A stretch of DNA of 23,919 nucleotides from positions 1-23,919 of IMG/VR virus record IMGVR_UViG_3300036466_000291. One strand, given 5' to 3'. Of this stretch, positions 484-19,096 are shown piece by piece. The position numbers and the translations under genes were made by a program. Within the stretch, counting starts at the first letter, position 1. Every line of letters begins with the position of its first letter. This DNA comes from a virus. Below the pieces are notes generated by a model. The model was not told the DNA's origin. It did no database searches and saw only the letters and a list, made by a program, of their open reading frames with translations.

Positions 484-512
484 ATATGCCATCTGGCACG
501 TAATCAGATAAA
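484..512 (+). promoter_or_regulatory. Class I promoter-like motif, copy 1 (ATATGC-N17-GATAAA)
   Basis: ATATGC at 484-489 is followed after exactly 17 nt by GATAAA at 507-512. The downstream text ATAAAATTAAACTTG is shared with the copy at 3731-3759 and mostly with that at 2453-2481. The 17-nt spacing is that of sigma-70 promoters, but the -35-like hexamer is not TTGACA. It lies about 60 nt before the amidoligase start. Promoter function is inferred from the repetition and position. Confidence 0.5.
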
Positions 513-573
513 ATTAAACTTGTCAGAGAGCGACACGGACAAAAACCCCAAACTATAAAAGGAGAGATTCGAA

Positions 574-2452: not shown

Positions 2453-2481
2453 ATGTGCATTATATGCCATTAGGGTATAAA
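2453..2481 (+). promoter_or_regulatory. Class I promoter-like motif, copy 2 (ATGTGC-N17-TATAAA)
   Basis: ATGTGC at 2453-2458 and TATAAA at 2476-2481 are separated by exactly 17 nt. The block CCATTAGGGTATAAAATTAA is identical to that in the 3731-3759 copy. It lies 53 nt before the start of the 82-aa gene. The repetition across three gaps supports a regulatory role. Confidence 0.6.
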
Positions 2482-2510
2482 ATTAAAATTAAGAAATATC
2501 CGCAACACTT

Positions 2511-2783: not shown

Positions 2784-2789
2784 GTCGAA

Positions 2790-2827
2790 ATGCCCTTCGG
2801 GGCATCTGGTTGAGATGGTCTCCAACC
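2790..2827 (+). promoter_or_regulatory. Two adjacent hairpins, the first with a UUCG tetraloop
   Basis: ATGCCC-TTCG-GGGCAT (2790-2805) is a perfect 6-bp stem with the very stable cUUCGg tetraloop. It is followed by GGTTG/CAACC (2808-2827) extended by AGA/TCT with one bulged C. No T-run follows. This suits a barrier to 3' exonucleases or an RNA processing signal between genes. Confidence 0.55.
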
Positions 2828-2868
2828 ACTGATGAGACAGACCAAAAATATAAAAGGAGGAAACAATT

Positions 2869-3730: not shown

Positions 3731-3759
3731 ATGTGCATTTTTGTCCATTAGGGTATAAA
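3731..3759 (+). promoter_or_regulatory. Class I promoter-like motif, copy 3 (ATGTGC-N17-TATAAA)
   Basis: ATGTGC at 3731-3736 and TATAAA at 3754-3759 are separated by exactly 17 nt. The text CCATTAGGGTATAAAATTAA matches copy 2, and AAATTAAACTTG matches copy 1. It ends 31 nt before the 58-aa gene. Confidence 0.6.
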
Positions 3760-3790
3760 ATTAAACTTGCAAGACAAGGAGGTGGATTTC

Positions 3791-4021: not shown

Positions 4022-4456
4022 ATGTATTATTTCGCTTATGGGAGCAATCTTAATTTATCACAGATGCTGGACAGGTGCCAAGATGCAATACCCGTAACAC
4101 AAGGTTTAATCAACAATTACGAGCTGTTGTACAGAGGGAACAAGCGTGGTATTGGTGTAGCCACAATAGAACCAAAGAAGGGTAAAACCGTGTACGGAGC
4201 AATTTACGAGGTCAGTGAAGACGACGTGAAGGCCCTAGATAGATATGAAGGTTTTCCTTGGTTGTATTACAAGGAATGGATTGAAGTTGAGACACGTGGC
4301 AGGGGAATGGTGAAAGCTCTTGTGTATGTGATGCACACAGATAGATACAGCTTCAAAGCACCAAGCAAAGCATATTTTGAAACAATTCTGACTGGATATG
4401 AAGATTGGGCACTGCCTGTAGAAATCTTGGACGATAGCATAGAAAATATAGGATAA
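4022..4456 (+). CDS. Gamma-glutamylcyclotransferase-like protein (GGCT/AIG2 family)
   Basis: 144 residues. The N-terminus MYYFAYGSNLN is the hallmark of the GGCT/AIG2 fold, and YGSN (6-9) forms the substrate-binding loop. LDRYEGFPW (72-80) carries the expected catalytic glutamate, E76. Family members release 5-oxoproline from gamma-glutamyl amines or trim gamma-glutamyl tags. I start at 4022, after AAAAGGAGGCAACATT, rather than at the upstream ATG at 3974. The fold homology begins exactly at 4022, and 3974 lies in the hairpin region. It shares a leader cassette with the 82-aa gene. Together with the amidoligase it forms a make/cleave pair seen in other phages. The substrate is unknown. Confidence 0.88.
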   Translation: MYYFAYGSNLNLSQMLDRCQDAIPVTQGLINNYELLYRGNKRGIGVATIEPKKGKTVYGAIYEVSEDDVKALDRYEGFPWLYYKEWIEVETRGRGMVKALVYVMHTDRYSFKAPSKAYFETILTGYEDWALPVEILDDSIENIG

Positions 4457-4482
4457 CATAAAACCACTGGAGGGGTCTCTTG

Positions 4483-7048: not shown

Positions 7049-8028
7049 TGGGTACAGGATTAAGATTGAGTTATTCACAAATTAGAACATGGCAAAGGTG
7101 TAGGCAGAAGTGGTATTATAGATACCAGATGGGGTTGTCACCCAAGGAATTCATCGAGAAATTAGAGCTTGGAAGTTATGGTCACGAATTGTTGGAGGCA
7201 TGGTACAATGGCAAGGATTGGAGAAAGGCCAGTGAAGAATACTGGAAAGAGAAAACAAAGAATATGTTCGAAGAGGAAATGTACCAATTCGAAGAAGTCA
7301 GGGCTGACGCAGAGCTAATTATGGAACGATATGTTGCCAGATATGCCGAACAACGCAGCAGGTGGGATATCATTGGGGTGGAACAAGAATTCGAGGTTAT
7401 CATCCCCACACACAAAGGATACCCGTCACAGAGCAGGCTATATGGAATATTCGACATGGTAATACAGGATGAATTGGATAATATTTGGCTTGTTGACCAC
7501 AAGATTACCAGCAGGGATATCGAGAAAACCGACAATGATTTGGTTCAAGACCAACAGGTCAATTATTATATTTGGGCTCTAAACAAAATGATGGATGGGG
7601 GCAAGGTATCTGGCATAATTTACAATATGTTGCGAAGCAAAACCCCAACTGTTCCAAGGGTGCTCAAAAGTGGAAAGTCTTTAAGCCGTGCCAAGAACAT
7701 AGATACCGATTATGAAACATACAGGCAGGCAATTATTGACAATGGGTTTGATGTGGCAGATTACAGTGAGATGCTGACCCACGTGAAGGAAAATACCAAA
7801 CCTTTCTTTACCCAGCTGAACAGCTATAGGAATGAACATGAGCTCAAAGTGATTGAGAAGGAACTATATGATGTTAGTAAAGATATCCGACAGGGCAGAA
7901 TTTTCCGCAACCAGACAAGCAACTGCAGTTGGGATTGCCCTTACAGAGAGCTATGCGTAATGGATATGAAAGGGGCAGACGCTGAGAGCTACATTGAATT
8001 GAACTTCGAGGAAAGAAAGAGAAAATAA
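7048..8028 (+). CDS. RecB-family PD-(D/E)xK nuclease with Cas4/AddB-type Fe-S cysteines
   Basis: 326 residues. The nuclease core is visible as H46, D136 (GIFD) and D150-H-K152 (VDHK), with Q/Y text (DQQVNYYIWAL) after it that matches RecB motif QxxxY. C18, C293, C297 and C303 are spaced as in the iron-sulfur clasp of AddB and Cas4 nucleases, where one N-terminal and three C-terminal cysteines hold a 4Fe-4S cluster. It probably resects DNA ends for recombination. I chose the ATG at 7048 (TAATG junction, AAGGAAGGTGG upstream). The longer reading from 6973 overlaps the zinc-ribbon gene and lacks a ribosome-binding site. A promoter-like site and inverted repeat lie at its 3' end. Confidence 0.9.
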   Translation: MGTGLRLSYSQIRTWQRCRQKWYYRYQMGLSPKEFIEKLELGSYGHELLEAWYNGKDWRKASEEYWKEKTKNMFEEEMYQFEEVRADAELIMERYVARYAEQRSRWDIIGVEQEFEVIIPTHKGYPSQSRLYGIFDMVIQDELDNIWLVDHKITSRDIEKTDNDLVQDQQVNYYIWALNKMMDGGKVSGIIYNMLRSKTPTVPRVLKSGKSLSRAKNIDTDYETYRQAIIDNGFDVADYSEMLTHVKENTKPFFTQLNSYRNEHELKVIEKELYDVSKDIRQGRIFRNQTSNCSWDCPYRELCVMDMKGADAESYIELNFEERKRK

Positions 8029-8053
8029 TTTGTGAAAAGGCGAATTATTTTCT
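8020..8053. repeat. Perfect 11-bp inverted repeat at the end of the nuclease gene
   Basis: AGAAAATAATT (8020-8030) and AATTATTTTCT (8043-8053) are exact complements around 12 nt. The right arm contains most of the -35-like GAATTA of the promoter-like site at 8042-8070. It could be a weak bidirectional terminator or an operator that masks this promoter. Confidence 0.5.
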
Positions 8054-8070
8054 GGGTTGAACTGTATAGT
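8042..8070 (+). promoter_or_regulatory. Class II promoter-like motif, copy A (GAATTA-N17-TATAGT)
   Basis: GAATTA (8042-8047, preceded by C in all three copies) and TATAGT (8065-8070) are separated by exactly 17 nt, with CTG before TATAGT. The same arrangement occurs at 13671-13699 and 19068-19096. It precedes the 118-aa gene, Sak4-like and SSB-like genes. Confidence 0.65.
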
Positions 8071-8095
8071 TATAAGTGAAGGGAGGTGATTGAAC

Positions 8096-8452
8096 TTGGC
8101 AAGAGCAAATAAGCAAAGTATTGAGGAATTGCCGAACGTTTGGGTGGTGAACAATTCAGGGCATGACTTTTCTCCAGCATATGAATACGGAGAAGATGTC
8201 TATTATCTCACAACTGGCAGGGTCAATATTTTCAAGACCAACAAGTTGATATCTGAATTCAAGGGTAAAATGGCAAATTTTAAAGAAGACGATTGGTTGC
8301 TATTAAGTGGGAACGCAATACTCAACGTGTTGGCTGTGACCGTAGCATTAGAGAAACACGGCATGGTGCAAACCCTGCTATACAATGCTATCACAAACAA
8401 CTATGCGAAGACAATATTGGATAAGGAGACCTTCCAAGGAGGGGTATATTAA
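8096..8452 (+). CDS. Conserved phage hypothetical protein (118 aa)
   Basis: A soluble alpha/beta protein whose N-terminus (ELPNVWVVNNSGHDFSPAYEYG) matches a type I recall from many Firmicute phages next to recombination genes; function unknown. I place the start at the TTG at 8096 because GGGAGGTG (8081-8088) is 7 nt upstream. The TTG at 8090 would be too close. The stop abuts the ATG of the Sak4-like gene. It is the first gene after class II motif A. The C-terminal part reads as helical (NAILNVLAVTVALEKHG), not as a membrane segment. Confidence 0.68.
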   Translation: MARANKQSIEELPNVWVVNNSGHDFSPAYEYGEDVYYLTTGRVNIFKTNKLISEFKGKMANFKEDDWLLLSGNAILNVLAVTVALEKHGMVQTLLYNAITNNYAKTILDKETFQGGVY

Positions 8453-9250
8453 ATGAGCAAAAAGAAGGAAGAATTCATAAAGAGAATTAATGCTAAAGTC
8501 TCAGATGTCTACGAGACACCAGCCAATGCAAATATCTTGGTGTACGCTCCAGCAGGTGTTGGTAAAACAACCTTAGCTGCTTTGGCACCCAAACCTATGG
8601 TGATAAGTGTAGAGGGTGGATTGAGCTGTTTACGCAAGCTGAAACCGTGGCAGGATAAACTGGATATCAAGACATACCCAGTGGATGGGTTCACTGACTT
8701 GAATGATATCTACGAATATCTAAGAGATTATGACCATGACAGAGAAACCGTAGTGATTGACACACTTACAGAGACCCAGAAGAAGTCAATGGATGGCATC
8801 TTGGATGACCCAAACAGAGATACTGAAAAGTACCCAAGAGATAAGCCAATCTTACAGGATTACGGCCGTAACACTCAACAAATGAGAAAGTTAATCCGTG
8901 CATTCCGAGACCTACCCATGAACGTGATATTTACATCACACGACATGGAGAACAAGGATGATGAGACAGGTGCAGTGCAGATTATGCCGAGCCTAACACC
9001 AAAGTTAGCTACAGACGTAATTGGCTATGTGGATGTTGTGGGATATCTGTATGTTGCTGATGATGAGGGAACCAGAAAGATGCTGACACAACCAAAGGGT
9101 AAGTGGACAGCTAAAGACAGATTTGGTATGTTGGGAGCAGGAATGACTGAACCTACAGGATACGAAATTCTAAATATTCTAACAGAGGGTGCTGTTAAAG
9201 TGCCTGATTGGTTAGAGGAAATCAAACAGGAGGTAAAGAATAATGGCTAA
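8453..9250 (+). CDS. Sak4-like RecA-fold ATPase (AAA_24), single-strand annealing/recombination
   Basis: 265 residues. Walker A is APAGVGKTT (32-40) and Walker B-like VVIDTLT is at 100-106. QDYGRNTQQMRKLIRAFRDL and VIFTSHD follow. This is the signature of the phage nucleotide-binding protein family AAA_24, which includes Sak4 single-strand annealing proteins related to the RecA core. Sak4 proteins work with an SSB partner, and the next gene encodes one, overlapping by 8 nt. It has a GGAGGGG ribosome-binding site 7-8 nt before the ATG. It probably mediates homologous recombination or recombination-dependent replication together with the upstream RecB-like nuclease. Length is typical for the family. 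Confidence 0.9.
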   Translation: MSKKKEEFIKRINAKVSDVYETPANANILVYAPAGVGKTTLAALAPKPMVISVEGGLSCLRKLKPWQDKLDIKTYPVDGFTDLNDIYEYLRDYDHDRETVVIDTLTETQKKSMDGILDDPNRDTEKYPRDKPILQDYGRNTQQMRKLIRAFRDLPMNVIFTSHDMENKDDETGAVQIMPSLTPKLATDVIGYVDVVGYLYVADDEGTRKMLTQPKGKWTAKDRFGMLGAGMTEPTGYEILNILTEGAVKVPDWLEEIKQEVKNNG

Positions 9251-9719
9251 AAGAAAATATGATTTTACAGATGTGGATGACCAGGATTTTGGAGCATTAC
9301 CAGCAGGGAAGTACCCAGTGTATGTTTTTGAGCACAACTTTAAGGAAAGCAGCAGTGGCAACCCAATGACCGTGCTGGTACTTAAGGTGGCAGAAGGCAA
9401 GGGTAAGGGCCGACAGTTTTGGTTCAACCTTGTTGAGACACCAAAGTCAATGTGGAAGATTAAAGAAACATTAGAGGCATTAGGGTATGATATACCCAAG
9501 AAGGCTGTGAGCATTGACTGGGATGAAGTGCTTGGTAAGAAGGCGATAGCAGTTGTCACTAAGGGCAAGTACAAAGGCAAGGACACCAACAACGTGGAGA
9601 AATTGCTGCCCTATGATGGAGAAGAAACCCCAGACACACCAGACGACACACCAGATTCACCATCTGAAGAAATCGACGACGAAGAATTCGATGCTGATGA
9701 CTTCGATGTTCCGTTTTAA
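9243..9719 (+). CDS. Single-stranded DNA-binding-like protein (DUF669) with SSB-type acidic tail
   Basis: 158 residues. The first 115 match the DUF669 family of phage SSB-like proteins (LPAGKYPVYV..., GRQFWFNL, IKETLEALG). The last 40 residues are a disordered Pro/Asp/Thr/Glu tail with the repeat PDTPDDTPDSPSEE, ending DADDFDVPF. That ending closely mimics the DDDIPF tip with which bacterial SSB recruits replication and repair proteins. It coats ssDNA and probably loads Sak4. The ATG lies inside the end of the Sak4 gene with AGGAGGT upstream. The tail mimicry is seen directly; partner recruitment is inferred. Confidence 0.88.
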   Translation: MAKRKYDFTDVDDQDFGALPAGKYPVYVFEHNFKESSSGNPMTVLVLKVAEGKGKGRQFWFNLVETPKSMWKIKETLEALGYDIPKKAVSIDWDEVLGKKAIAVVTKGKYKGKDTNNVEKLLPYDGEETPDTPDDTPDSPSEEIDDEEFDADDFDVPF

Positions 9720-9732
9720 GGAGGTGTTGTAG

Positions 9733-9903
9733 GTGGACAAATACACCGTGACAGTTGAAGTAGCAGTTGAAGCTAGGTACAGAGAGGTAGCACAGAAACG
9801 TGTTGACAGATTGCTTGGTAGCAGAGACAAACAGTGGGCTAAGGATTGCAACATGGAAGTTGAAGTTGGAGAGCTAGAGAAGGTCGAAAACTGCAAGTGC
9901 TAA
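9733..9903 (+). CDS. Small hypothetical protein (56 aa, GTG start)
   Basis: A GTG at 9733, 6 nt after AAGGAGGTG (9718-9726), opens a 56-residue frame ending TAA at 9901-9903. The strong, well-spaced ribosome-binding site and position directly after the SSB gene support it. The protein reads MDKYTVTVEVAVEARYREVA then a basic helix, then EVEVGELEKVENCKC. The beta-helix-beta look suggests a compact fold. No family is recognised. It is the last gene before the terminator at 9909. Confidence 0.7.
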   Translation: MDKYTVTVEVAVEARYREVAQKRVDRLLGSRDKQWAKDCNMEVEVGELEKVENCKC

Positions 9904-9908
9904 AACTG

Positions 9909-9943
9909 AAAGTCAGTTCTGAAAAGGGCTGACTTTTTCTTTT
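9909..9943 (+). terminator. Intrinsic terminator of the recombination operon
   Basis: AAAGTCAG (9909-9916) pairs perfectly with CTGACTTT (9929-9936), followed by TTCTTTT. It starts 6 nt after the stop of the 56-aa gene. It is a textbook rho-independent terminator closing the 4483-9903 unit. Confidence 0.85.
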
Positions 9944-10036
9944 AGTCAATTAGCCTAAGGCTCATTCCGACGAAGTTATAATACTGTCACTTGCTCAGAC
10001 ACCAAAATGCTTGGCCTAGCTAACTCTTTTAAAAAT

Positions 10037-10125
10037 TCATCTCCCGAGAATAAAACCAAGGGGGGTCACCTACTTTTTTTACAAATGCTTGCGGGAGTAC
10101 CCTTCTGAAAATTCTTAGGAGATGA
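10037..10125. repeat. Spaced inverted repeat TCATCTCC / GGAGATGA
   Basis: TCATCTCC (10037-10044) and GGAGATGA (10118-10125) are exact complements 73 bp apart. They lie inside the larger inverted pair CACCAAAATGC (10000-10010) / GCATTTTGGTG (10144-10154). The nested symmetry suggests a looped protein-binding region. Confidence 0.5.
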
Positions 10126-10141
10126 GAGGGTGTATACGGGG

Positions 10142-10190
10142 GAGCATTTTGGTGTATAACTGAGCATTTTGAAGCACCAACTGTTATAAT
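10142..10190 (+). promoter_or_regulatory. Extended -10 promoter with two upstream GAGCATTTTG repeats
   Basis: TGTTATAAT (10182-10190) is an extended -10 element, but no TTGACA lies upstream. Instead, GAGCATTTTG occurs at 10142-10151 and again at 10162-10171, exactly 20 bp apart. The second copy covers the -35 position. The arrangement fits an activator, or repressor, binding two sites on one face of the helix. Confidence 0.5.
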
Positions 10191-10210
10191 CTTGACCGGA
10201 ACGGCTGTCA

Positions 10211-10260
10211 GAGCTTATAAAGAGCTTTAATCGCTTATAATTAGGATTAATTAGGCAAGT
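10211..10260. repeat. Five 10-bp phased repeats, four ending in TAA-type ends
   Basis: GAGCTTATAA, AGAGCTTTAA, TCGCTTATAA, TTAGGATTAA and TTAGGCAAGT follow one another with a 10-bp period. GCTTATAA recurs at 20 bp and AATTAGG at 10 bp. Helical phasing of AT-rich words is typical of iterons, bent DNA or operator arrays. Confidence 0.5.
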
Positions 10261-10322
10261 TTTTGCTTAGCTGTCGTAAAACGGCTGAAAAACGATGAAA
10301 AATTGTCTAATTCAATTTGCTA

Positions 10323-10355
10323 CAATTCCCTAAAAATTCAAATTGTAGGGAATTG
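10323..10355. repeat. Perfect 10-bp inverted repeat CAATTCCCTA / TAGGGAATTG
   Basis: CAATTCCCTA (10323-10332) and TAGGGAATTG (10346-10355) are exact complements around 13 nt. A second pair, CTACAATT (10320-10327) / AATTGTAG (10341-10348), overlaps it, so two alternative stems compete. No T-run follows, so an operator or origin element is more likely than a terminator. Confidence 0.55.
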
Positions 10356-10371
10356 AACATAAAACGTAATC

Positions 10372-10395
10372 ACAAAAACGTAGATTAGTTTTTGT
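10372..10395. repeat. Perfect 8-bp inverted repeat ACAAAAAC / GTTTTTGT
   Basis: ACAAAAAC (10372-10379) and GTTTTTGT (10388-10395) flank 8 nt. TATTTTTGT follows, so on the plus strand it could also act as a weak terminator. It lies about 115 bp before the RHH gene and could be its autoregulatory operator. Confidence 0.45.
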
Positions 10396-10510
10396 ATTTT
10401 TGTAAAACTTGTACAAATTATCATCAAATCAATTCCAAAAGCATTGAAGGTATTATGATATCAACCGAGAATACAATACTTTGAAACCAAAATCTATGGG
10501 GGGTAATATA

Positions 10511-10810
10511 GTGAAAAAGCATATCAACTTATATTTGGATAGAGATGTGGCTGAAGAAGTCAAGAAACGGTCGAAGAACAACGAGAGAAGTCTCAGTGGT
10601 GAAATACGTAGGTTGGTTAAGATAGGATTAGCACAAGTCAAGCATGGAGGTTCTACAGCTGGAAACCAGCAACCCACGAACGATAAGCCAACCAACTGTC
10701 CAGAATGTGGTCAGAAACAGGACGAGCTAGGCAATCCAACCCTAACAGTCAATGAGAGTGGAACATGGTATTGTAGGGCTTGTAATTCAAGTGGAAGGTG
10801 GGATTCATAG
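10511..10810 (+). CDS. Ribbon-helix-helix DNA-binding protein fused to a zinc ribbon
   Basis: 99 residues. Residues 3-42 (KKHINLYLDRDVAEEVKKRS...LSGEIRRLVKIGL) show the ribbon-helix-helix pattern of Arc/MetJ/CopG-type dimers: a basic beta strand followed by two helices. A polar linker leads to a zinc ribbon with CPEC (63-66) and CRAC (88-91). The GTG at 10511 is 7 nt after GGGGGG (10498-10503), and the in-frame TTG at 10481 has no site. The stop overlaps the primase GTG as TAGTG. It lies directly downstream of the repeat-rich region, so binding those repeats as repressor, copy control or origin-recognition protein is a natural guess, not shown. Confidence 0.8.
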   Translation: MKKHINLYLDRDVAEEVKKRSKNNERSLSGEIRRLVKIGLAQVKHGGSTAGNQQPTNDKPTNCPECGQKQDELGNPTLTVNESGTWYCRACNSSGRWDS

Positions 10811-13647
10811 TGACAAGACGAGAGTGGATAGAGAATTTTTACGCTGAACATTTCCCAGTTGGACGTATCAACAGTGAAGGTGAAATGGATGTAAAATGTC
10901 CTTTCCACGACGATAACAGGGAATCAATGTCCCTTAACATGAGAACGGGGCTGTGGTATTGCCACGTTTGTGATGAAGGTGGAGATGAATACGACTTCTA
11001 CATGAAGTACCACGACAAGAATTATAGGGAGACAATTGCAGCTTGCAATTCTAAATTCGGAGAAAGGCCCGAATATGACGAAGAATCTAACCCCAATAGT
11101 TCTGCCCAGAGGGAAGAGCGTAAACCAGTCCCAAAGACGTTGGTCAAACAATGGCACAGAATGTTGAAGAAAGCACCAAAAGTTTTAGACTACCTTCTTA
11201 ATAAAAGAGGGCTGACAGAAGAGACATTAGAAAAGTATGATATTGGTTGGGATGTAGAGCGTGTCACAATACCAATACCAAATGAAGAAAACGATTACAT
11301 TAATGTGAGACGTTATTCAGCCCAAGGGCGTGGTGGTAATAAGATGGTGTCCTATAAGGCAGGGTACGGACAGGCCGTGTTATATCCAGTCGAGAATCTG
11401 AGGGAAGATACAATACTTCTCTGTGAAGGTGAGATGGATTGTCTCTTAGCTAACCAGCTGGGGTTCAACGCTGTCACCACTACAGGTGGAGCAGGCACTT
11501 GGAGAGATGAGTGGGAAGATGAATTCGTGGACAAAGAGGTCTACATTTGCTATGATGTTGACCCAGCTGGAGTTAAAGGTGCACAGAAAGTGGCACGTAA
11601 GATACATGACGTGGCAAAGTCTGTTAAGGTGATGTCCCTACCCATAGTGGATATTAAGGGTGGAGATTTGACTGATTATTTCATTAACTTAGGTCACACC
11701 AAGGAAGATTTCATCAAGCTGATGAATGAAACCCTTTCATATAATAGGGAAGAAGAAATCCCTTCCCCAGACCAGCAAGAATATAAAGTACATCTGAGTC
11801 AGGCCAGTGAAGCCCAGTATCACCACAAGAATATCAGTATGGAAACAATCGTTGCAGGTAAGGATTTGGCACCATATCTTATCCCTAAGACAGTTGAATT
11901 GTTCTGTCCTGCAGATAGCAAGAAGTGTGCTAGCTGTGGACTTGGCATCCAGAATGGTGCTGCAACAGTTACATTCAAACCTGATGATAGGTCTGTGTTA
12001 CAGCTGATAGATAGCTCAGACAGTCAGAAAAAGGGCATAATTAAGAGAAAACTTGGGATACCTAAGAATTGCAGCTCTTTCGATGTGGTAGAGACTGAAG
12101 CTCAGAACGTGGAGGAAGTCACCCTGATACCAGAACTGGATTTCTCTTCAGAAGAGCATGAATATGTGGTAAGGAGAGCGTTCTATGTAGGACATGGACT
12201 TGGTTCCAACCAGAGCTATGTTATGCACGGTGTGACAGTTCCTGACCCGTGGCACCAGTACGCAACACATGTAATCAGCAACGCAGAACCCAGTCAGGAT
12301 AATATTTCAAACTTCAGCATGTCGCAGGAAAAACACGAAAGACTTAAGAAATTCCAGCCAGCTGAAGGCCAAACAGTGGAAGAAAAATTTGATGAGATTC
12401 ACGAAGATTTTGAGCATAACATTACACACATCTATGGAAGAAAGGATGTATTGACTGCAGTTGATATGGTTTTCTATTCGGCTCTTTCTTTCAACTTTCA
12501 AGACAAGTTGATTAAGCGTGGTTGGGTTGAAGCCCTAATTATTGGTGATACCAGAACAGGGAAGTCCGAGACCGTGCACCAGATGATGAACCATTACAAA
12601 CTTGGAGAGCTTGTGACAGGTGAGAACACATCCTTCGCAGGGTTGATTGGTGGTATGCAACAGACACAAAAGCGTTGGTCAATCACGTGGGGTAAAATTC
12701 CATTGAACGATAGAAGGTTAATCATTATTGATGAGGCATCAGGGTTATCAGAGAATGAAATAGGGAACATGTCAGGTGTACGCTCCAGTGGGATAGCAGA
12801 AATTACCAAGATACAAACCGAGCGAACCCACGCAAGAACCAGACTAATCTGGATATCCAATACCAGAACAGGTCAGGCCCTAAGAGAATATGGGTTCGGG
12901 GTTGAAGCTATACCACAGTTAATTGGTAAGATGGAGGATGTTGCTAGGTTTGAATTCGTGGTAAGCTGTGCCAGTGAAGAAGTGCCAATGGAAACCATTA
13001 ACCAACGTATCAGCAAACATGGGGAAGTCGAGCACCAGTACACATTCGATATCTCCAAGCAGCTGATATTATGGGCATGGTCTAGAACCCCAGACCAGAT
13101 TGTATTCCAGAGTGACACTATTGATGCTATACTGGAGAAAGCCACTGAGATGGGTGAAACCTATGTGTCACAGATACCATTGGTCGAAGGTGCTAACCAG
13201 CGTATCAAATTGGCCAGACTTGCTGTTTCAACTGCAGCTAGGATGTATAATACTCCAGATGGTGAACGCTTAATTGTTGAGCCAGAGCATGTGCAATTCG
13301 CTTATGACTATCTCAATAAAGTGTATAAGAAACCATCCCTTGGATACTGGGATTTCAGCAGGCAGATTAGAGAACAAGAAGAGGTGGCAGAACAAGCCAA
13401 ACCGAAAGTGGTAGAATATCTGAAGAAGAACCCACAGGTAGCCAACCTTTTCCTAGCACACAGTGCGATATCAGGCCGTGACTTAGAAGATTTAGCAGAC
13501 TTGGACAGGTCAACAGTTAGGAGACATCTTAAATTTCTAGCAAAGAACGGGATGATTAGAAAGTCAACCAGTGGGTATCGGAAAGCCCCAGCATTTGTGA
13601 CTATTCTCAGGGAATACAAACGTAATAAGGCCATGGAAGAAGAATAA
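10810..13647 (+). CDS. Primase-helicase: CHC2 zinc finger + TOPRIM + MCM-like AAA+ helicase + winged helix
   Basis: 945 residues. The CHC2-type zinc finger uses C30, H33, C51 and C54. The TOPRIM primase core shows CEGEMD (E206) and YDVD (D249, D251). A second cysteine cluster, CPADSKKCASC, starts at about residue 363. The AAA+ motor has Walker A GDTRTGKS (579-586) and Walker B IIIDEAS (638-644), then SNTRTG. The AAA+ core text (GENTSFAGLIGG, RRLIIIDEASGLSENE) resembles MCM rather than DnaB/T7 helicase. An MCM N-terminal-like zinc/OB segment and a C-terminal winged helix (about 870-930) support this. It makes primers and unwinds DNA. The GTG at 10810 is 7 nt after GGAAGGTGG. The domain calls are firm; MCM affinity is moderately sure. 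Confidence 0.9.
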   Translation: MTRREWIENFYAEHFPVGRINSEGEMDVKCPFHDDNRESMSLNMRTGLWYCHVCDEGGDEYDFYMKYHDKNYRETIAACNSKFGERPEYDEESNPNSSAQREERKPVPKTLVKQWHRMLKKAPKVLDYLLNKRGLTEETLEKYDIGWDVERVTIPIPNEENDYINVRRYSAQGRGGNKMVSYKAGYGQAVLYPVENLREDTILLCEGEMDCLLANQLGFNAVTTTGGAGTWRDEWEDEFVDKEVYICYDVDPAGVKGAQKVARKIHDVAKSVKVMSLPIVDIKGGDLTDYFINLGHTKEDFIKLMNETLSYNREEEIPSPDQQEYKVHLSQASEAQYHHKNISMETIVAGKDLAPYLIPKTVELFCPADSKKCASCGLGIQNGAATVTFKPDDRSVLQLIDSSDSQKKGIIKRKLGIPKNCSSFDVVETEAQNVEEVTLIPELDFSSEEHEYVVRRAFYVGHGLGSNQSYVMHGVTVPDPWHQYATHVISNAEPSQDNISNFSMSQEKHERLKKFQPAEGQTVEEKFDEIHEDFEHNITHIYGRKDVLTAVDMVFYSALSFNFQDKLIKRGWVEALIIGDTRTGKSETVHQMMNHYKLGELVTGENTSFAGLIGGMQQTQKRWSITWGKIPLNDRRLIIIDEASGLSENEIGNMSGVRSSGIAEITKIQTERTHARTRLIWISNTRTGQALREYGFGVEAIPQLIGKMEDVARFEFVVSCASEEVPMETINQRISKHGEVEHQYTFDISKQLILWAWSRTPDQIVFQSDTIDAILEKATEMGETYVSQIPLVEGANQRIKLARLAVSTAARMYNTPDGERLIVEPEHVQFAYDYLNKVYKKPSLGYWDFSRQIREQEEVAEQAKPKVVEYLKKNPQVANLFLAHSAISGRDLEDLADLDRSTVRRHLKFLAKNGMIRKSTSGYRKAPAFVTILREYKRNKAMEEE

Positions 13648-13670
13648 TTCAAATTATTTTCATGGAAAAC

Positions 13671-13699
13671 GAATTAAACGGTGGTCTCAGCTGTATAGT
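13671..13699 (+). promoter_or_regulatory. Class II promoter-like motif, copy B (GAATTA-N17-TATAGT)
   Basis: GAATTA (13671-13676), 17 nt, TATAGT (13694-13699). The upstream block AATTATTTT-NN-TGGAAAAC is shared with copy C, as is GCTGTATAGTCTTATTGA. It lies 24-52 bp after the primase-helicase stop and drives, by position, the transglycosylase-to-SDR unit. Confidence 0.7.
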
Positions 13700-13713
13700 C
13701 TTATTGAGACCAC
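13681..13713. promoter_or_regulatory. 9-bp inverted repeat bracketing the -10 of copy B
   Basis: GTGGTCTCA (13681-13689) and TGAGACCAC (13705-13713) are exact complements, and the TATAGT box sits in the 15-nt loop. Copies A and C lack this perfect palindrome. A repressor operator, or a hairpin at the 5' end of the transcript, would explain it. Confidence 0.5.
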
Positions 13714-13758
13714 TTAATAAACTTGGTCATTATCAAATAACCCAAAGGAGGAAAAGAT

Positions 13759-14493
13759 ATGTGGCTCCAAGACAGAATGAAAGAGCGTTTAAAGTTTGCA
13801 ATCAAGTGGGTAGTTATCATCATTATGATAGGTATCTTAATCGGAGGTGCTAGCAGGCTGTTCTACCAAATAGACCAACAACAAAAGCGAATTCGTGAAC
13901 TTGAAGATTTGATTATGGAACAACGAGAAAGTATATCCGATATGCAGATAAGCAAGGCTGAAACCGTCAAACTTTTGAATGAAAGGGATTGGACAAAACA
14001 CTGGACGAGAGAGCTTCACATCCAGTTGGCAGATGAAATTGAGGAAGTCCATAAAATTAGGAATGAAATATTATACTATAACCCTAATATATCAAGAGAA
14101 TTGGCTAGTTATCAAGGTTTATGGATATACACCAGAGCTAAACAAGCAGGTATTGACCCATACAAAGTTGCAGCCGTAGCTGTCTTGGAGAGTGATATCA
14201 GCCACGATATGGATGGTATCATGTACAAAAGCCACAAAGGGGCAACAGGAATGATGCAATTGACCCCACTCATTGCCAAGCATTATCAGATAAATCCAGA
14301 TATCTTCGAAGAGAACATAAAAGGTGGTGCTGAATTCTTGGCAGACTTGGAGAAAATTTACGATGACCCACGCTTACAGCTGGCTCATTACAATGCTGGG
14401 TCACAACCAAGAAAGGCTTTGAGAGAATATTCAGAAACAAAGAATTATGTCAAAGGGGTAAGTGAGGTATATGAATCTCTAACAAACAATTAA
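13759..14493 (+). CDS. Membrane-anchored lytic transglycosylase (SLT domain)
   Basis: 244 residues. A hydrophobic helix at 13-31 (IKWVVIIIMIGILIGGAS) follows a basic start, which is a signal anchor with no visible cleavage site. A coiled-coil stretch (36-105) leads to a soluble lytic transglycosylase domain. Catalytic E144 lies in AVAVLESDISH, followed by GATGMMQLTP (161-170) and AHYNAG (209-214). It cleaves the MurNAc-GlcNAc bond of peptidoglycan from outside the membrane. CCCAAAGGAGG precedes the ATG. Its place among nucleotide-metabolism genes, directly under class II motif B, is unusual for a lysis or virion enzyme. It may act early on the envelope or in late lysis. Confidence 0.88.
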   Translation: MWLQDRMKERLKFAIKWVVIIIMIGILIGGASRLFYQIDQQQKRIRELEDLIMEQRESISDMQISKAETVKLLNERDWTKHWTRELHIQLADEIEEVHKIRNEILYYNPNISRELASYQGLWIYTRAKQAGIDPYKVAAVAVLESDISHDMDGIMYKSHKGATGMMQLTPLIAKHYQINPDIFEENIKGGAEFLADLEKIYDDPRLQLAHYNAGSQPRKALREYSETKNYVKGVSEVYESLTNN

Positions 14494-14507
14494 TGGAGGT
14501 GTAGGAA

Positions 14508-14942
14508 TTGCAGAAAGGCGACAGGTTAATGTTGTCAATAGCAGAGCAATTAGGTGAAGCATGGTCAACATGCACCAGAAGGCAGATTGGTTGTCTAATA
14601 TATGATAAGGAAGGAACAATGATAGCTACAGGTGTGAACAGAACTGCATCAGGTCACGAAGAATGTAAGGAGAAAGGCTGCATCCGAGACCAGAGAGGTA
14701 TTCCAAGTGGTACACAGTTGGGGGTTTGTCGTGCAGTTCATGCAGAAATCAATGCTCTTCTCAAGGCAGGCCCACAAGCTGAAGGTGGTGTGTTATATGT
14801 GAGCACTTCACCGTGCCCTATATGTGCGAGGGCCATAGCTTCAGCAGGAATTCGCAAGGTGTTCTATCTGAGTGAATATTCCAACACAGAGGGGATTAAT
14901 ATATTAGAACATTATGGGGTAAGGACAGAAAATATCAAATAA
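14508..14942 (+). CDS. dCMP/cytidine deaminase (zinc-dependent, ComE-like)
   Basis: 144 residues. The deaminase zinc motif is HAE (H78, E80) with PCPIC (C103, C106). H50, C53, C58 and C74 around GHEECKEKGC probably form the second structural zinc site of phage dCMP deaminases. The start is TTG at 14508, 6 nt after GGAGGTG. The ATG at 14529 would remove part of the first helix. It converts dCMP to dUMP, the substrate of thymidylate synthases, and a ThyX-like gene is present at 19593. Fifteen nt separate it from the transglycosylase and 11 nt from the next gene, so it is part of the same unit. Confidence 0.9.
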   Translation: MQKGDRLMLSIAEQLGEAWSTCTRRQIGCLIYDKEGTMIATGVNRTASGHEECKEKGCIRDQRGIPSGTQLGVCRAVHAEINALLKAGPQAEGGVLYVSTSPCPICARAIASAGIRKVFYLSEYSNTEGINILEHYGVRTENIK

Positions 14943-14953
14943 GGAGGAATGAC

Positions 14954-15784
14954 ATGGCAAGGGTGGCAATAATTGGAGCAGGAATGTCAGGAATGTTAAC
15001 AGCTAAAGCGTTGGTAGATAAGGGGTTCGAGAATTTTACCATATTCGACAAAGAGATGCCAAGCAAAGAACCAAAGAAGGGGTTACATTATTTACACAAT
15101 CCATGTGGTTTGCCGTTGAAAGCAGAATTGGTTCATAACATAGTTATTGGTGCAAATGGCACAACCCCACCATATATGCAATATGCAGATAAATTGAGAA
15201 TTCCCCACAATAACAGTGTTAATGGTCTGCAATCTTACACCAGAGTGTATGATTTCAACAAAGCTTATCGGATGTTATTGGATATATTCAGAGAAAGAAT
15301 AAATGTTGAGAATATGAATAGGGATTCTGTCAAGAGATTGCTTAAATACGGGGATTACGACAGGGCCGTAAGCACGATACCAAGAGATTGCGTTGACAAC
15401 AAAGCTAAGTGTGGAGGTAAGAGGGTTATAACAATAACAGGCAGGCCAATTAACTGGGATGGAGAACTTTTCCCCCAGCTGAAGAATGTGGTTGTTTATA
15501 ACCTTGATGAGAAGGTCAGTTGGTATCGTTACAGCAGGGTTTTTGGCCATGAAGTCACAGAATATGGCAGACGACCAGAGGGGGTTGCCGATAATTGCCC
15601 GACAGTCACTAAAATTATCAATGATGAACACGGTGATATTCTCAATTGGTCAGATGGAGAGGTTCTGTTAGCAGGCAGGTGGGCCAGATGGAAACGTGGT
15701 TATCTTGCTCATCAGGCATATTATGATACACTGGAATGGTCGCATAGTTTTATAGGGGGCAACAATGCCGATTACATGGACTGA
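14954..15784 (+). CDS. FAD/NAD(P)-binding Rossmann oxidoreductase
   Basis: 276 residues. IIGAGMSGMLTAKAL near the N-terminus is the dinucleotide-binding GxGxxG motif, with an acidic end to the second strand (FTIFDKE). The C-terminal VLLAGRWARWKRGYLAHQAY resembles the closing FAD-contact segment of flavoproteins such as amine oxidases or UDP-galactopyranose mutases (GR...G). It is shorter than those enzymes (about 370-450 residues), so the substrate domain is reduced. Substrate is unknown. The gene starts after AAGGAGGAATGAC, and the next gene overlaps its end by 20 nt. Its company of nucleotide and SDR enzymes suggests modification of a small metabolite, possibly a nucleotide or sugar. Confidence 0.72.
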   Translation: MARVAIIGAGMSGMLTAKALVDKGFENFTIFDKEMPSKEPKKGLHYLHNPCGLPLKAELVHNIVIGANGTTPPYMQYADKLRIPHNNSVNGLQSYTRVYDFNKAYRMLLDIFRERINVENMNRDSVKRLLKYGDYDRAVSTIPRDCVDNKAKCGGKRVITITGRPINWDGELFPQLKNVVVYNLDEKVSWYRYSRVFGHEVTEYGRRPEGVADNCPTVTKIINDEHGDILNWSDGEVLLAGRWARWKRGYLAHQAYYDTLEWSHSFIGGNNADYMD

Positions 15785-15956
15785 GAAGAATGTCAGGATG
15801 AAATTAGAGCTGTTCCCCGAGATTGCTGGGATGACAATATTAGAATATAAAGATTTCAGGCAGGGGTGTGGCTTAGATTTGCCTAGCATCCTTACCATAA
15901 GCAAGCTGTATGGCAGTTGGAACGAATTCAAAACAAAAGTATATGGAGGGTTATAA
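15765..15956 (+). CDS. Mini-protein with a homing-endonuclease-associated repeat (HNR-like)
   Basis: 63 residues. The pattern ILEYKDFRQGCG-LPSILTISKLYGSWNEF matches the repeat '..eY..fr....LPs..ti.r.fGSWneal..aG' found beside HNH and other homing endonucleases in phages, where it acts as a small DNA-binding module. No nuclease domain is attached. It begins at 15765, inside the end of the FAD gene, with AGGGGG upstream. It stops 2 nt before the next start. It may be a remnant of a homing element or an independent regulator. Confidence 0.65.
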   Translation: MPITWTEKNVRMKLELFPEIAGMTILEYKDFRQGCGLDLPSILTISKLYGSWNEFKTKVYGGL

Positions 15957-15958
15957 TA

Positions 15959-16927
15959 ATGAAGGACATTTTTGATATGATTTGGGAAGACCAAGCGAAA
16001 TTCAACGAAAATATCTATGACAAAGATAAATTAGATAAGGAAGGGCTTAGACACTGGACGAATTATTACACTTTGGCTTTGCACAGGGAGGCAAGTGAAG
16101 CCCTAGATGAACTGGATTGGAAAGTCCACAGGGAAGAACATAAAGATGTTGTACGCTCTAATCTGTTGGAGGAATTGGTTGATGTATTCAAATACTGGAT
16201 GTGCTTAGCCCAACTGCATGGGTTCTCACTGGATGAAGTCACAGATGAATACTTTAGGAAGAGTGCCGTTGTGGAGCAAAGATACAGACAAGAGAAACAG
16301 CTGCAATTCGGCCCAGAAGATAAGATTGTTGGGGTTGACATAGATGGTGTGCTTGCCAAATATCCTGATGAATTTGTTAAATTTATCAATGATGAAATGG
16401 GCACGGAATTCAAGCGTGAACAGGTCACAAGCTATAATATCTACGAGGATTTGGGGATACCGTTGGAGCAAGGTATTAAGCTCAAAGACAAATTTCGTCA
16501 GACTGGCAGAAATCGTGACATTGGGGTTCACCATAAATCCAAGGAATTCTTGAAAGGGTTGAAAGATAAAGGGTATAAAATCGTGCTTCTTACAGCTAGA
16601 CCATACGAGAAGTACAAGCGTATCCTAGCAGACACCATGCAGTGGCTTGACAGCAACGAATTATATTATGATGCTCTAGTTTTCGCTGAGAAAAAGCATG
16701 AGAAACTGCTAGAGAAGTATGACCCAGACCAGATTGTGTTCTTTGTGGATGATGTTCTAGGTAATGCTGAAGATATCACCAGTCTTGGTGTACCGTGCTA
16801 CCTAATGGACGCTCCATACAACCAGAACAAAGAATTGAGAGACGGCATAACACGGGTGTATAATTTAGAAGATATCATGATAAAGGAGGAATTATCAGAC
16901 TATGAAAATCCTAACAACGAAAATTAG
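15959..16927 (+). CDS. Fusion of all-alpha NTP pyrophosphatase (MazG/dUTPase-like) and HAD phosphatase
   Basis: 322 residues. The N-terminal half (1-112) is all-helical with EASE (44-47) and LLEELVDVFKY (69-79), giving the ExxE/ExxD metal-binding set of MazG and dimeric dUTPases. The second half (122-322) is a HAD phosphatase. VDIDG (126-130) supplies nucleophile D127 and D129, LLTARP is motif II, and VFFVDD is motif IV. It resembles 5'-deoxynucleotidases. The two activities in series would turn a dNTP into dNMP and then nucleoside, or discard an unwanted nucleotide. The ATG at 15959 follows GGAGGG, and the upstream in-frame ATG at 15917 lies inside the previous gene. Substrate specificity is inferred. 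Confidence 0.84.
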   Translation: MKDIFDMIWEDQAKFNENIYDKDKLDKEGLRHWTNYYTLALHREASEALDELDWKVHREEHKDVVRSNLLEELVDVFKYWMCLAQLHGFSLDEVTDEYFRKSAVVEQRYRQEKQLQFGPEDKIVGVDIDGVLAKYPDEFVKFINDEMGTEFKREQVTSYNIYEDLGIPLEQGIKLKDKFRQTGRNRDIGVHHKSKEFLKGLKDKGYKIVLLTARPYEKYKRILADTMQWLDSNELYYDALVFAEKKHEKLLEKYDPDQIVFFVDDVLGNAEDITSLGVPCYLMDAPYNQNKELRDGITRVYNLEDIMIKEELSDYENPNNEN

Positions 16928-17564
16928 ACAAAACAATTTAGCAGGAGCTTTCTACAGGGTGATGTCCAGATTCCCAGAGGTACAGGTGGTGGGTATGCCA
17001 ACGGATATGGATATCAGGAGCATGGAATGTTATGAGTGGTTTGAACAACACAGTGATGCAGATGCATTCGTAAATATGGCAGGTGTCACAGATATGTGCA
17101 ACATAGACGATTGGACTTTTGAGAGGGCATCAAGTGTGGTGTCTGTTAATCTCACAGGTGCAATCAATCTAACCACAGCATTTGTCAGGGGTACTTGGGA
17201 TAATCCTAACAACAAAACCATTGTCCATGTAGGCAGTCTCTGGAGCAGAAAAGCTGCAACGGGTGGTGCTGCATATAGTGCCAGTAAGGCAGGTTTGGCC
17301 CAATATGTTATCTCAGCTGGTTATGAATTGCCCAACAGATATGCCGTAATTGGATTGCATCCTGCGAACATAGCAGACACTGGCATGTCAAGGCAGGTGC
17401 AGGATAATCTACAGAACAGACGGGGTATGTCCAAGCAACAGGTTCAGGAAATTTATCAGGATGTAATTACAGCTGAAGAGGTGGCTGAAGAAATCAGGGT
17501 TCTCTTAGATGCCCACTGGTATGATGGTGAGAATATCTATCTAGGTAAAGGGGACAAACGATAA
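16902..17564 (+). CDS. Short-chain dehydrogenase/reductase-like protein lacking the N-terminal glycine motif
   Basis: 220 residues. The SDR catalytic tetrad is complete: N83, S112 (HVGSLWS), Y125 and K129 (YSASK). NMAG (58-61) corresponds to the NNAG structural motif, and a C-terminal ENIYLG fits the family end. However, the first strand KILTTKIRQNNLAGAF lacks the TGxxxGxG turn that binds NAD(P), so cofactor binding is altered or lost. The start overlaps the fusion gene by 26 nt. AAAGGAGG lies 12 nt before the ATG, a long spacing. A second, canonical SDR is encoded at 18229. The substrate is unknown; the two could act in sequence or as a heteromer. Confidence 0.78.
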   Translation: MKILTTKIRQNNLAGAFYRVMSRFPEVQVVGMPTDMDIRSMECYEWFEQHSDADAFVNMAGVTDMCNIDDWTFERASSVVSVNLTGAINLTTAFVRGTWDNPNNKTIVHVGSLWSRKAATGGAAYSASKAGLAQYVISAGYELPNRYAVIGLHPANIADTGMSRQVQDNLQNRRGMSKQQVQEIYQDVITAEEVAEEIRVLLDAHWYDGENIYLGKGDKR

Positions 17565-17794
17565 TGGATATGGTGAAGGTTTGGTTCCAGTTGAGAGGTT
17601 ATATAGCCAATGAGAAAACGAGCTATGGCAGGAATCAGTTGTTGGAGGTGATGAATGAATTTGAGAGGCAAGCAATCGAGGAAAAAGAGAAGACAGTTCA
17701 TTTGATAGGAGAGGGTGTAATTGACAAGGAGAATTTCATCAAGGACACACTTTGTATGTATAAGAAAGGAGGTGGAGAAGTAAATGAGGGATGA
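17564..17794 (+). CDS. Hypothetical protein (76 aa)
   Basis: A small, charged helical protein with no motif I recognise. The segment LLEVMNEFERQAIEEKEKT is an amphipathic helix, and the C-terminus (YKKGGGEVNEG) reads as a flexible tail. It starts one base inside the SDR stop (TAATG) and ends 11 nt inside the next gene, so it is translationally coupled to both. Its last codons carry the ribosome-binding site AAAGGAGGTGG of the Nmad1-like gene. Confidence 0.6.
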   Translation: MDMVKVWFQLRGYIANEKTSYGRNQLLEVMNEFERQAIEEKEKTVHLIGEGVIDKENFIKDTLCMYKKGGGEVNEG

Positions 17795-18236
17795 CGGGCA
17801 GTTGGAATTGTTTGACATGCCAGAGGTTGAAAACCAAGAAGAAAAAGACTTGTTAGAGAGAAACTATTACACAGCAGAATTCCGTAAAATATTAGAAGAG
17901 GTATTCCAAAAGGCCAGAGGGCCGAAGACCGCAGATTACAAAGAAACTTGGAAACGTGTAGGGTTGAAGGGTAATTATATAAAACTAATGATAAAAGATG
18001 GACGTCTACGTAATCTCATCTGGGAGGGAAAAGAACCAGAAGTTGGGAATGAAAGTTTGAGAGATACCCTGATAGATTTGACAGCGTATGGGGTTTATAG
18101 TTTGATTTGCTTAGATGAAGGCAATATAGAAGGACAAGAAGAAGTGAAAGAAGACCATATGGCTTTATTGGACAAAGTTGTAAAACAATTTAATGAGAAA
18201 TATAATCTAAATTTGGAGGTTGTTAATAATGAATAA
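17784..18236 (+). CDS. Nmad1/DUF1599-like protein (nucleotide modification associated domain)
   Basis: 150 residues. The pattern ADYKETW (50-56), GNYIKLMIKDGRLRNL (63-78), NE (89-90) and DTLIDLTAYGVYSL (94-107) matches what I recall of DUF1599, also called Nmad1. In that family 'K..DYG.sW', 'K..Rl' and 'E...Dt..DlanY' are conserved. It is a helical domain that recurs in phages near thymidylate synthase and nucleotide-modifying genes; its reaction is not established. The N-terminal 40 residues are acidic. A strong AAAGGAGGTGG precedes the ATG, and its end overlaps the second SDR by 8 nt. Family assignment rests on motif memory and should be checked with a profile search. Confidence 0.7.
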   Translation: MRDDGQLELFDMPEVENQEEKDLLERNYYTAEFRKILEEVFQKARGPKTADYKETWKRVGLKGNYIKLMIKDGRLRNLIWEGKEPEVGNESLRDTLIDLTAYGVYSLICLDEGNIEGQEEVKEDHMALLDKVVKQFNEKYNLNLEVVNNE

Positions 18237-19005
18237 CGTTAATCGCAAGGGTGTAGTTTTAGTTGGTGGCTGTGGTAGAGAAGGTAATATTGGACAGGCA
18301 GCAGTGACAAAGTTCAGCGAAGAAGAGTACATTGTAGTGGGAGTAGATATTAAGGAATTCGCTGAAGCAGGCTTCAACGGTGACACTTATATCCAAGCAG
18401 ACCTGACCGACAAAGCACAGGTGCAAGAATTGTTTGGTGAAATTAGTCACTTATATGGTAGACTGGACATTGTAATTAATGCAGCAGGGGTTAATCTCTT
18501 GGGGCCAATTGGCACTTACCCAGAGGACTATTTTGATAAGACTATCGATGTTAATCTCAAATCAAACTTTCTGATGTTGCAGCAATATGTCAACGAATTT
18601 GATAACGACGGTGTGGAGAAGAGGTTTATTGTTGTGGGTTCTGACACTGGTATGGTAGCCAAGACCAGCACATTCGCTTACGGGGCATCCAAAGCAGGTG
18701 TTCACCACTTTGTTAGATGTACAGCCCGAGAGCTCAACAAATATCATGCTGATGATTGGATGGTATCTGCCCTAGCTATAGGGATGGTCGAGGGTACACC
18801 AATGGACAACAAAACCATTGCTGACTTGACAGAACAGCGTGACATCAGCGAAGAAGAGGCACGCTCTATGTTAACAGCTAATATTCCTACAGGCAGAGGT
18901 GCAACACCACGTGAGGTGGCTGAATGGTTATACTTCATGGCAACCAAAGGTGAATATGCAACAGGTAATGTTCTCAAAGTTGACAGTGGTCAGCTGCAAG
19001 GTTAG
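18229..19005 (+). CDS. Short-chain dehydrogenase/reductase (SDR)
   Basis: 258 residues with all classical SDR features. The nucleotide loop is GGCGREGNIG (13-22), D59 of DLT contacts adenine, and NAAG is at 84-87. The catalytic residues are N109, S138, Y151 and K155 (YGASK). The text resembles 3-oxoacyl-ACP-reductase-type SDRs. It uses NAD(P)(H) to reduce or oxidise a carbonyl/alcohol; substrate unknown. D39 after VVGV at the end of the second strand favours NAD(H). I start at the ATG at 18229, 9 nt after GGAGG; the TTG at 18220 is adjacent to that site. It is the last gene of the unit, and a terminator follows. Confidence 0.88.
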   Translation: MNNVNRKGVVLVGGCGREGNIGQAAVTKFSEEEYIVVGVDIKEFAEAGFNGDTYIQADLTDKAQVQELFGEISHLYGRLDIVINAAGVNLLGPIGTYPEDYFDKTIDVNLKSNFLMLQQYVNEFDNDGVEKRFIVVGSDTGMVAKTSTFAYGASKAGVHHFVRCTARELNKYHADDWMVSALAIGMVEGTPMDNKTIADLTEQRDISEEEARSMLTANIPTGRGATPREVAEWLYFMATKGEYATGNVLKVDSGQLQG

Positions 19006-19012
19006 TCCTAGA

Positions 19013-19046
19013 AGGGGTGGGTTATTCAGCCCATCCCTATTTTCTT
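19013..19046 (+). terminator. Intrinsic terminator after the second SDR gene
   Basis: AGGGGTGGG (19013-19021) pairs with CCCATCCCT (19030-19038), 9 pairs with one G·T wobble and an 8-nt loop, followed by ATTTTCTT. The strong GC stem plus T-run clearly ends the 13759-19005 unit. Confidence 0.85.
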
Positions 19047-19067
19047 ATAATTATTTTGTTGGAAAAC

Positions 19068-19096
19068 GAATTAAAAACCAATCACGGCTGTATAGT
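19068..19096 (+). promoter_or_regulatory. Class II promoter-like motif, copy C (GAATTA-N17-TATAGT)
   Basis: GAATTA (19068-19073), 17 nt, TATAGT (19091-19096), directly after a terminator. The flanks TGGAAAAC and GGCTG are near-identical to copy B, and CTTATTGA follows the box in both. A promoter just after a terminator is the expected layout for a new transcription unit. Confidence 0.72.

Follow-up and report, generated by a model that had tools for sequence, protein, structure and literature searches.

Bacillus phage SPO1 turns on its later gene classes by replacing the host sigma factor with sigma factors of its own, gp28 for middle and gp34 for late genes. Both boxes are changed in SPO1 middle promoters. 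The SPO1 sigma factors are indispensable for SPO1, and other phages carry sporulation-like sigma factors of the SigF/G/K type (PMC9429907). The lytic phages phiEco32 and Salmonella phage 7-11 likewise encode their own sigma factor, which reads low-copy, highly conserved promoters recognized by intergenic comparison, and an early class read by the host sigma precedes the switch; what defines the phage promoters is a motif in the −10 region, TAATGTATA / TGATGT (PMC4331800). At the MotA/AsiA-dependent middle promoters of phage T4, a phage box stands in place of the −35 element, 12 ± 1 bp from a −10 that remains host-like (PMC2988021). Here we analyse a 23,919-nucleotide stretch of virus DNA (IMG/VR record IMGVR_UViG_3300036466_000291), referred to as the window; it is a 23.9-kb fragment, and copy counts refer to this stretch. 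The window encodes a small sigma70-family protein and contains three promoter-like sites, A, B and C, of the form GAATTA-N17-TATAGT, which are probably middle-class phage promoters read by host core polymerase together with the phage sigma factor.

The locus shares with phiEco32 and 7-11 a phage-encoded sigma, a small number of conserved promoters and a putative host-read early class, but whereas the −10 motif defines the promoters in those phages, here the −10 is close to TATAAT and it is the −35 box that differs. It likewise differs from SPO1, in that only the −35 is altered and the gene set is a different one, syntenic with that of phages Youna2 and BSTP12. The T4 middle promoters resemble the sites in the window in the replacement of the −35 and the retention of the −10, but not in the distance between the two. 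Regulons read by phage sigma factors are already known; what is unusual is that the −35 boxes differ among related phages while the −10 stays near TATAAT.

Three sites with an invariant −35 box

A pattern scan of the window for CGAATTA-N15..19-TATAGT returned exactly three matches, each of them on the + strand with N17 between the boxes (8041-8070, 13670-13699 and 19067-19096; hexamers beginning at 8042, 13671 and 19068). Dinucleotide shuffles of the window gave a mean of 0.00 matches and never reached three. When the spacer was varied from N10 to N25, the three sites appeared at N17 only and coding sequence contained none; all three lie between genes, on the coding strand. The earlier note on this DNA, made from its letters alone, had described three near-identical sites with exactly 17 nt between the hexamers, and three exact matches where none is expected bear it out; the motif scan that it proposed, run on the 23.9-kb record, returned these copies and no others. 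When the sequence upstream of the four intergenic TATAVT sites was shuffled 500 times and the sites themselves were left in place, a 5-mer common to three sites at one distance never arose (0 of 500).

In an alignment of A, B and C, CGAATTA and CTGTATAGT are invariant, and an A/T-rich block upstream is partly shared. The similarity of B and C extends further, as the note had also stated, and covers 56 nt at 82% identity. Near-identity of all three copies holds for the core; of the upstream block, A shares less than B and C. Across a collection of virus contigs the motif occurs 10 times at N17 and 7 times at the control spacer N18; the exact motif is thus no more frequent in other virus contigs than chance would give, and is not widespread. 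The region around promoter B had no match among phage records.

It is quite unlikely that A–C are ordinary host sigma-A promoters in which a poor −35 is offset by an upstream (UP) element. Such a reading accounts for the conserved A/T-rich block directly 5' of the −35 and for a −10 one base from TATAAT. However, GAATTA is invariant at the three sites, which would not be expected of a neglected −35, and it has only its last base in common with TTGACA, in agreement with the note's remark that the −35 is not the host consensus. TTG is absent from the −35 at A–C, so the sigma-A arrangement (TTG, a spacer of 17 ± 1 and TATAAT) is not found there; a scan with the sigma70 consensus passes over the sites, none of them has the TGN of an extended −10, and relatives in which no sigma was found have TTG at the same spacing.

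That the repeated element is instead a regulatory element of RNA or DNA, such as a hairpin or an operator, is extremely improbable. A 9-bp inverted repeat around the −10 of B does fold well (z = −3.1), but it is absent from A and C (z = −0.15 and 0.5, respectively), no Rfam family matched at any of the three sites, and the position, the spacing and the parallels in relatives fit promoters. A local hairpin was accordingly rejected as a feature common to the three sites, because A and C do not fold. The repeat at B may be an operator or may shape read-through RNA.

The sites head gene blocks, as the note had proposed: they are intergenic, on the + strand, and the first two blocks each finish in a strong terminator. 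The two terminator-like hairpins concerned are the best such sites on the + strand of the window. Block B (13759-19005) lies 3' of site B, and site C comes after the terminator that follows this block. On the + strand between 4400 and 8041, there is no terminator-like site.

A two-domain sigma factor

The encoded sigma contains Sigma70_r2 (PF04542, E = 8.8e-16), whereas the Pfam match to its region 4 is weak, at 20.7 bits for a cut-off of 24.1. The whole protein matches TIGR02937, the sigma70-ECF superfamily (3.3e-26), and PHROG 351 (1.8e-33). The note's assignment of regions 2 and 4 is upheld to this extent, while the start of the gene may be either the ATG at 4483 or a TTG one codon upstream, at 4480. 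AlphaFold2 predicts two helical domains joined by a disordered linker (residues 78-95), with no region 3; whole-chain Foldseek comparisons (rmsd 11-28) carry no information, because the two domains have no fixed mutual orientation. The helix listed in Table 1 is presumably the one that reads the −35, as region 4.2 does in sigma70 factors.

With regions 2 and 4 and no region 3, the protein has the layout of the extracytoplasmic function (ECF, group 4) sigma factors. Promoters of ECF sigma factors have AAC in the −35 and a CGTC-like −10; the sites in the window, with GAATTA and TATAGT, are not of this type. Nor do they follow the SigB pattern, GTTTAA-N15-GGGTAT. The next-best model is nevertheless SigB/SigF/SigG (TIGR02980, 9e-25), at 87.6 bits, below its curated cut-off of 234.35. 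The best specific-family models, SigB/SigF/SigG and SigF, are reminiscent of the sporulation-like phage sigmas, but the window sigma falls below all of those curated cut-offs, has no region 3 and appears to be linked with promoters of the phage, not with sporulation genes of the host.

Related phages have their own −35 boxes

An alignment of four primases used as the query found 80 relatives, whereas single-sequence queries with the primase, DnaE or the sigma recovered none. The nearest relatives have primases 57-61% (L014-L018), 52% (L019) and 46% (L020) identical to that of the window; as genomes they are designated G001 (L014), G002 (L015, a fragment without the sigma region), G003 (L016), G004 (L017), G005 (L018) and G007 (L020), and a further relative, L078, is G040. 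The order SNF2 helicase, PD-(D/E)XK nuclease, AAA_24, DUF669, primase is kept, and Youna2 and BSTP12, both cultured phages, have this core as well. In the window, L014, L016, L017 and L018, the sigma gene is flanked by the GGCT and SNF2 helicase genes; in L020 it stands 5' of the SNF2 helicase gene. These syntenic sigmas are 32-39% identical over the aligned protein, compared with 46-61% for the primases. When 50 whole records were searched by profile, sigma region 2 turned up in L014, L016, L017, L018, L020, G046 and, elsewhere in the genome, G040, and in none of the other records, which include Youna2, BSTP12 and Sparcetus. A scan with the SNF2 helicase gave no closer sigma-bearing relatives, and when bacterial genomes were searched for a host or prophage, the primase had only distant and partial matches.

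We searched without bias for any 5-mer at any distance 19-26 nt 5' of intergenic TATAAT-like sites. The top word was CGAAT at −24 in the window (E = 5e-3), GGAAT at −24 in the 62-kb G007 (6 of 30 candidate sites, corrected E = 7e-9) and GGGTC at −24 in G005 (3 of 7 sites, E = 9e-5), while in Youna2, L028, L086 and BSTP12 the words place TTG at −23. Upstream shuffles reached the observed level in 0 of 500 trials for the window, 0 of 500 for G007 and 5 of 500 for G005. The sigma-bearing relatives each have a repeated non-TTG −35 box of their own, 16-17 bp 5' of TATAVT: GGAAT in G007, GGGTC in G005 and GGGTY in G001, G003 and G004. In G007, GGAAT-N19-TATAVT occurs at five intergenic and two coding sites, with no intergenic match at 15 other spacings; in G001-G004, GGGT(T/C) is mostly followed by N18 or N19.

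Conversely, intergenic TTG(A/C)-N19-TATAVT, the canonical 17-bp spacing, is absent from the window, G001-G005 and G007, and occurs in relatives without a detected sigma (8 times in Youna2, 9 in BSTP12, 6 in L086 and twice each in L028, L021 and L022). Such relatives, with three exceptions named below, appear to use ordinary TTG(A/C)NN-N17-TATAAT promoters. The change of box can be followed at orthologous positions. Ahead of the gp32-like/AAA_24 genes (position A) stand GAATTA-17 in the window, GGTTAC-16 in G001 and G003, GGTTGA-16 in G004, GGTCAA-17 in G005 and GAATAC-17 in G007; ahead of the ThyX block (position C) stand GAATTA in the window, GGATTGA or GGTTGA in G001-G003 and GAATTG in G007. 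In G007, moreover, GGAAT-N19-TAAAAT (G007:C1:240-269; L191) heads the block that contains the phage's own sigma gene, so that positive feedback is possible.

These parallels bear on whether the phage instead makes use of promoters that belong to an alternative sigma of the host (of the SigB/F/G kind or a stress sigma), its own sigma serving a different purpose, for instance to redirect host genes. Phage sigmas of the sporulation-like type can act on genes of the host, and the phage can do without them (PMC9429907); the −35 of SigB, GTTTAA (PMC9847131), is similar to the GGGTTRA boxes of G001-G004. The −10 of SigB promoters is GGGTAT, however, with spacers of about 14-15 (PMC9847131), as against TATAVT and 16-17 here, and the type of −35 changes between phages along with their own sigma. 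We regard this explanation as very unlikely.

Region 4 and the −35 box

If the phage sigma reads the −35, its region 4 should follow the box. In region 4, the window sigma is identical to that of L020 at 19 of 45 positions and to those of L014-L018 at 13-14 of 44; in region 2 the order is reversed, with 21 of 69 for L020 and 28-34 of 69 for L014-L018, in agreement with the primases. Permutation of columns between the domains gave an interaction p = 0.007-0.03 over four non-independent comparisons. The half that presumably reads the −35 thus appears to pair the two phages with GAAT boxes, the window and G007, against the rest of the genome, which is supporting evidence rather than proof.

The principal alternative is an appropriation of the T4 kind, in which a phage activator bound to the GAATTA box would steer the host sigma-A holoenzyme, which itself reads TATAGT. 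As in T4 middle promoters, only the −35 departs from the host consensus and the −10 is near TATAAT (PMC2988021), and the window encodes a ribbon–helix–helix (RHH)/Arc-like protein, a weak match, at 10511-10810. Against this, the box lies 17 bp from the −10, the canonical distance for sigma region 4, and not at the 12 ± 1 bp of MotA; none of the 20 window proteins scanned, from a record that is a fragment, matched MotA or AsiA; tblastn gave no match for the RHH protein in L014-L018, where the parallel promoters do occur; and an activator does not predict that sigma region 4 should follow the box. We consider such a mechanism unlikely.

A putative early promoter class

A second class, which the earlier note did not mention, has the form AT[G/A]TG-N20-TAWAAT. 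The window has three copies, ahead of early genes, and the class recurs at that spacing in G001 (two copies) and G003 (one); the sole other intergenic match in these three overlaps the window site with its −10 at 2478. In the window, G001 and G003, it lies 5' of the sigma gene with this one fixed spacer. Read in the N17 register, these sites have TG at positions 2-3 of the −35, which would be compatible with host sigma A. Such a class would complete the temporal picture.

A predicted middle-class regulon

From the three sites with their spacing and positions, the sigma gene in its conserved order and the parallel families in relatives, we infer promoter function, reader and timing: A–C are likely to be middle-class promoters served by host core and the phage sigma. 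The phage-specific regulon that the note had postulated gains support, as an inference, from the relatives' own −35 boxes, from TTG in relatives in which no sigma was found and from the covariation of region 4.

Several observations weigh on the other side. TATAGT is one base from the sigma-A −10, so the host sigma may read A–C. Taken singly, the −35 families of G001-G004 are matched by 15-116 of 500 shuffles and are not clearly above chance, and they rest on the parallelism between related phages. L026, L069 and L087, in which no sigma was found, have 0-1 TTG-class sites. G040 carries a different, non-syntenic sigma and yet has about ten near-identical intergenic promoters of the TTGATT-N17-TATAAT type (L195, L196; 10 intergenic matches to TTG(A/C)-N19-TATAVT), so the mere presence of any sigma gene is not predictive. 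Most of the sigma-less records are fragments, as are several relatives, which makes the absence of a sigma there uncertain, and the covariation is based on six sigmas and four box types.

In the mechanism that we propose, the early genes, the sigma gene among them, would first be transcribed by the host holoenzyme from the AT[G/A]TG-N20-TAWAAT class. The phage sigma would then bind host core, replacing the main host sigma; its region 4 would touch GAATTA at the −35 and its region 2 would open the −10 at TATAGT, with the alpha domains of the polymerase probably touching the A/T block upstream. The switch would turn on a recombination and single-stranded DNA-binding block (A), a block for nucleotide and cell-wall enzymes (B) and the ThyX/DnaE replication block (C).

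A likely regulon and its promoter sequence can thus be assigned, from sequence alone, to the sigma factor of an undescribed phage lineage. More tentatively, and with slightly less than even confidence, we suggest that one lineage of phages has long possessed a two-domain sigma and that the −35 which this sigma recognizes has drifted (GAATTA, GGAATN, GGGTTRA, GGGTCAA), with the −10 near TATAAT and orthologous promoters changing in step. If so, these phages offer a natural series for reading the code by which region 4.2 recognizes the −35, and the boxes may form a private transcription code that bars related phages, or the host sigma, from each other's promoters. Matched pairs of a small sigma and a −35 box with a near-constant −10 would also serve as transcription switches that are simple, testable and perhaps orthogonal, and are relevant to the evolution of −35 specificity.

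Table 1. Positions of the sigma gene, promoter-like sites and associated elements in the window
Feature	Position	Strand	Description
Small sigma70-family protein, 165 aa	4483..4980	+	Regions 2 and 4 only, no region 3; Pfam, TIGRFAM, PHROG
Putative region 4.2 recognition helix, codons	4903..4938	+	SQAQVCRILKKA; alignment with relatives
Promoter-like site A	8042..8070	+	GAATTA-N17-TATAGT; heads gp32-like/AAA_24/DUF669 block; orthologous positions in relatives have other −35 types
Promoter-like site B	13671..13699	+	GAATTA-N17-TATAGT; heads transglycosylase/nucleotide-metabolism block
Promoter-like site C	19068..19096	+	GAATTA-N17-TATAGT; heads ThyX/DnaE block; position also in L014, L015, L016, G007
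A/T-rich UP-element-like block at A	8016..8041	+	72% A+T; aligns in part with B and C; putative UP role
A/T-rich block 5' of −35 at B	13646..13670	+	AATTATTTTCATGGAAAAC; repeat search, alignment
A/T-rich block 5' of −35 at C	19043..19067	+	AATTATTTTGTTGGAAAAC; repeat search, alignment
9-bp inverted repeat	13681..13713	+	GTGGTCTCA/TGAGACCAC; covers −10 and predicted start, promoter B only; read directly
Terminator-like intrinsic hairpin, end of block A	9908..9937	+	13 pairs, then T run
Terminator-like intrinsic hairpin, end of block B	19013..19038	+	11 pairs, then T run; 29 nt 5' of −35 of C
Putative early-class promoter 1	484..514	+	ATATG-N20-TAAAAT; −10 at 509; spacing scan
Putative early-class promoter 2	2453..2483	+	ATGTG-N20-TAAAAT; −10 at 2478; repeat D12, spacing scan
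Putative early-class promoter 3	3731..3761	+	ATGTG-N20-TAAAAT; −10 at 3756; repeat D12, spacing scan; 5' of sigma-gene block

Other features of the window

Between block A and the primase region, about 560 nt (9946-10510) are free of genes and are a candidate replication origin. The segments 574-1425, 4022-4456, 14508-18236 and 18220-19005 encode an amidoligase, GGCT, a DUF1599 protein (nucleotide-modification-associated domain), an oxidoreductase, an NT5C-dUTPase fusion and two SDR-like proteins, which suggests a DNA base hypermodification pathway replacing the queuosine-type genes of Youna2 and BSTP12. Hammerhead type II ribozymes lie in short gaps among early genes, in the window at 2783-2846 (+), in L016 at 1048-1115 and in L197 at 15548-15615 (−), with scores of 48.9-53.7 bits against a cut-off of 37; GAAAC and CTGATGA sequences like those of the ribozyme stand 5' of the GGCT gene in L014 and L016. 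These ribozymes possibly process the 5' ends of mRNA.

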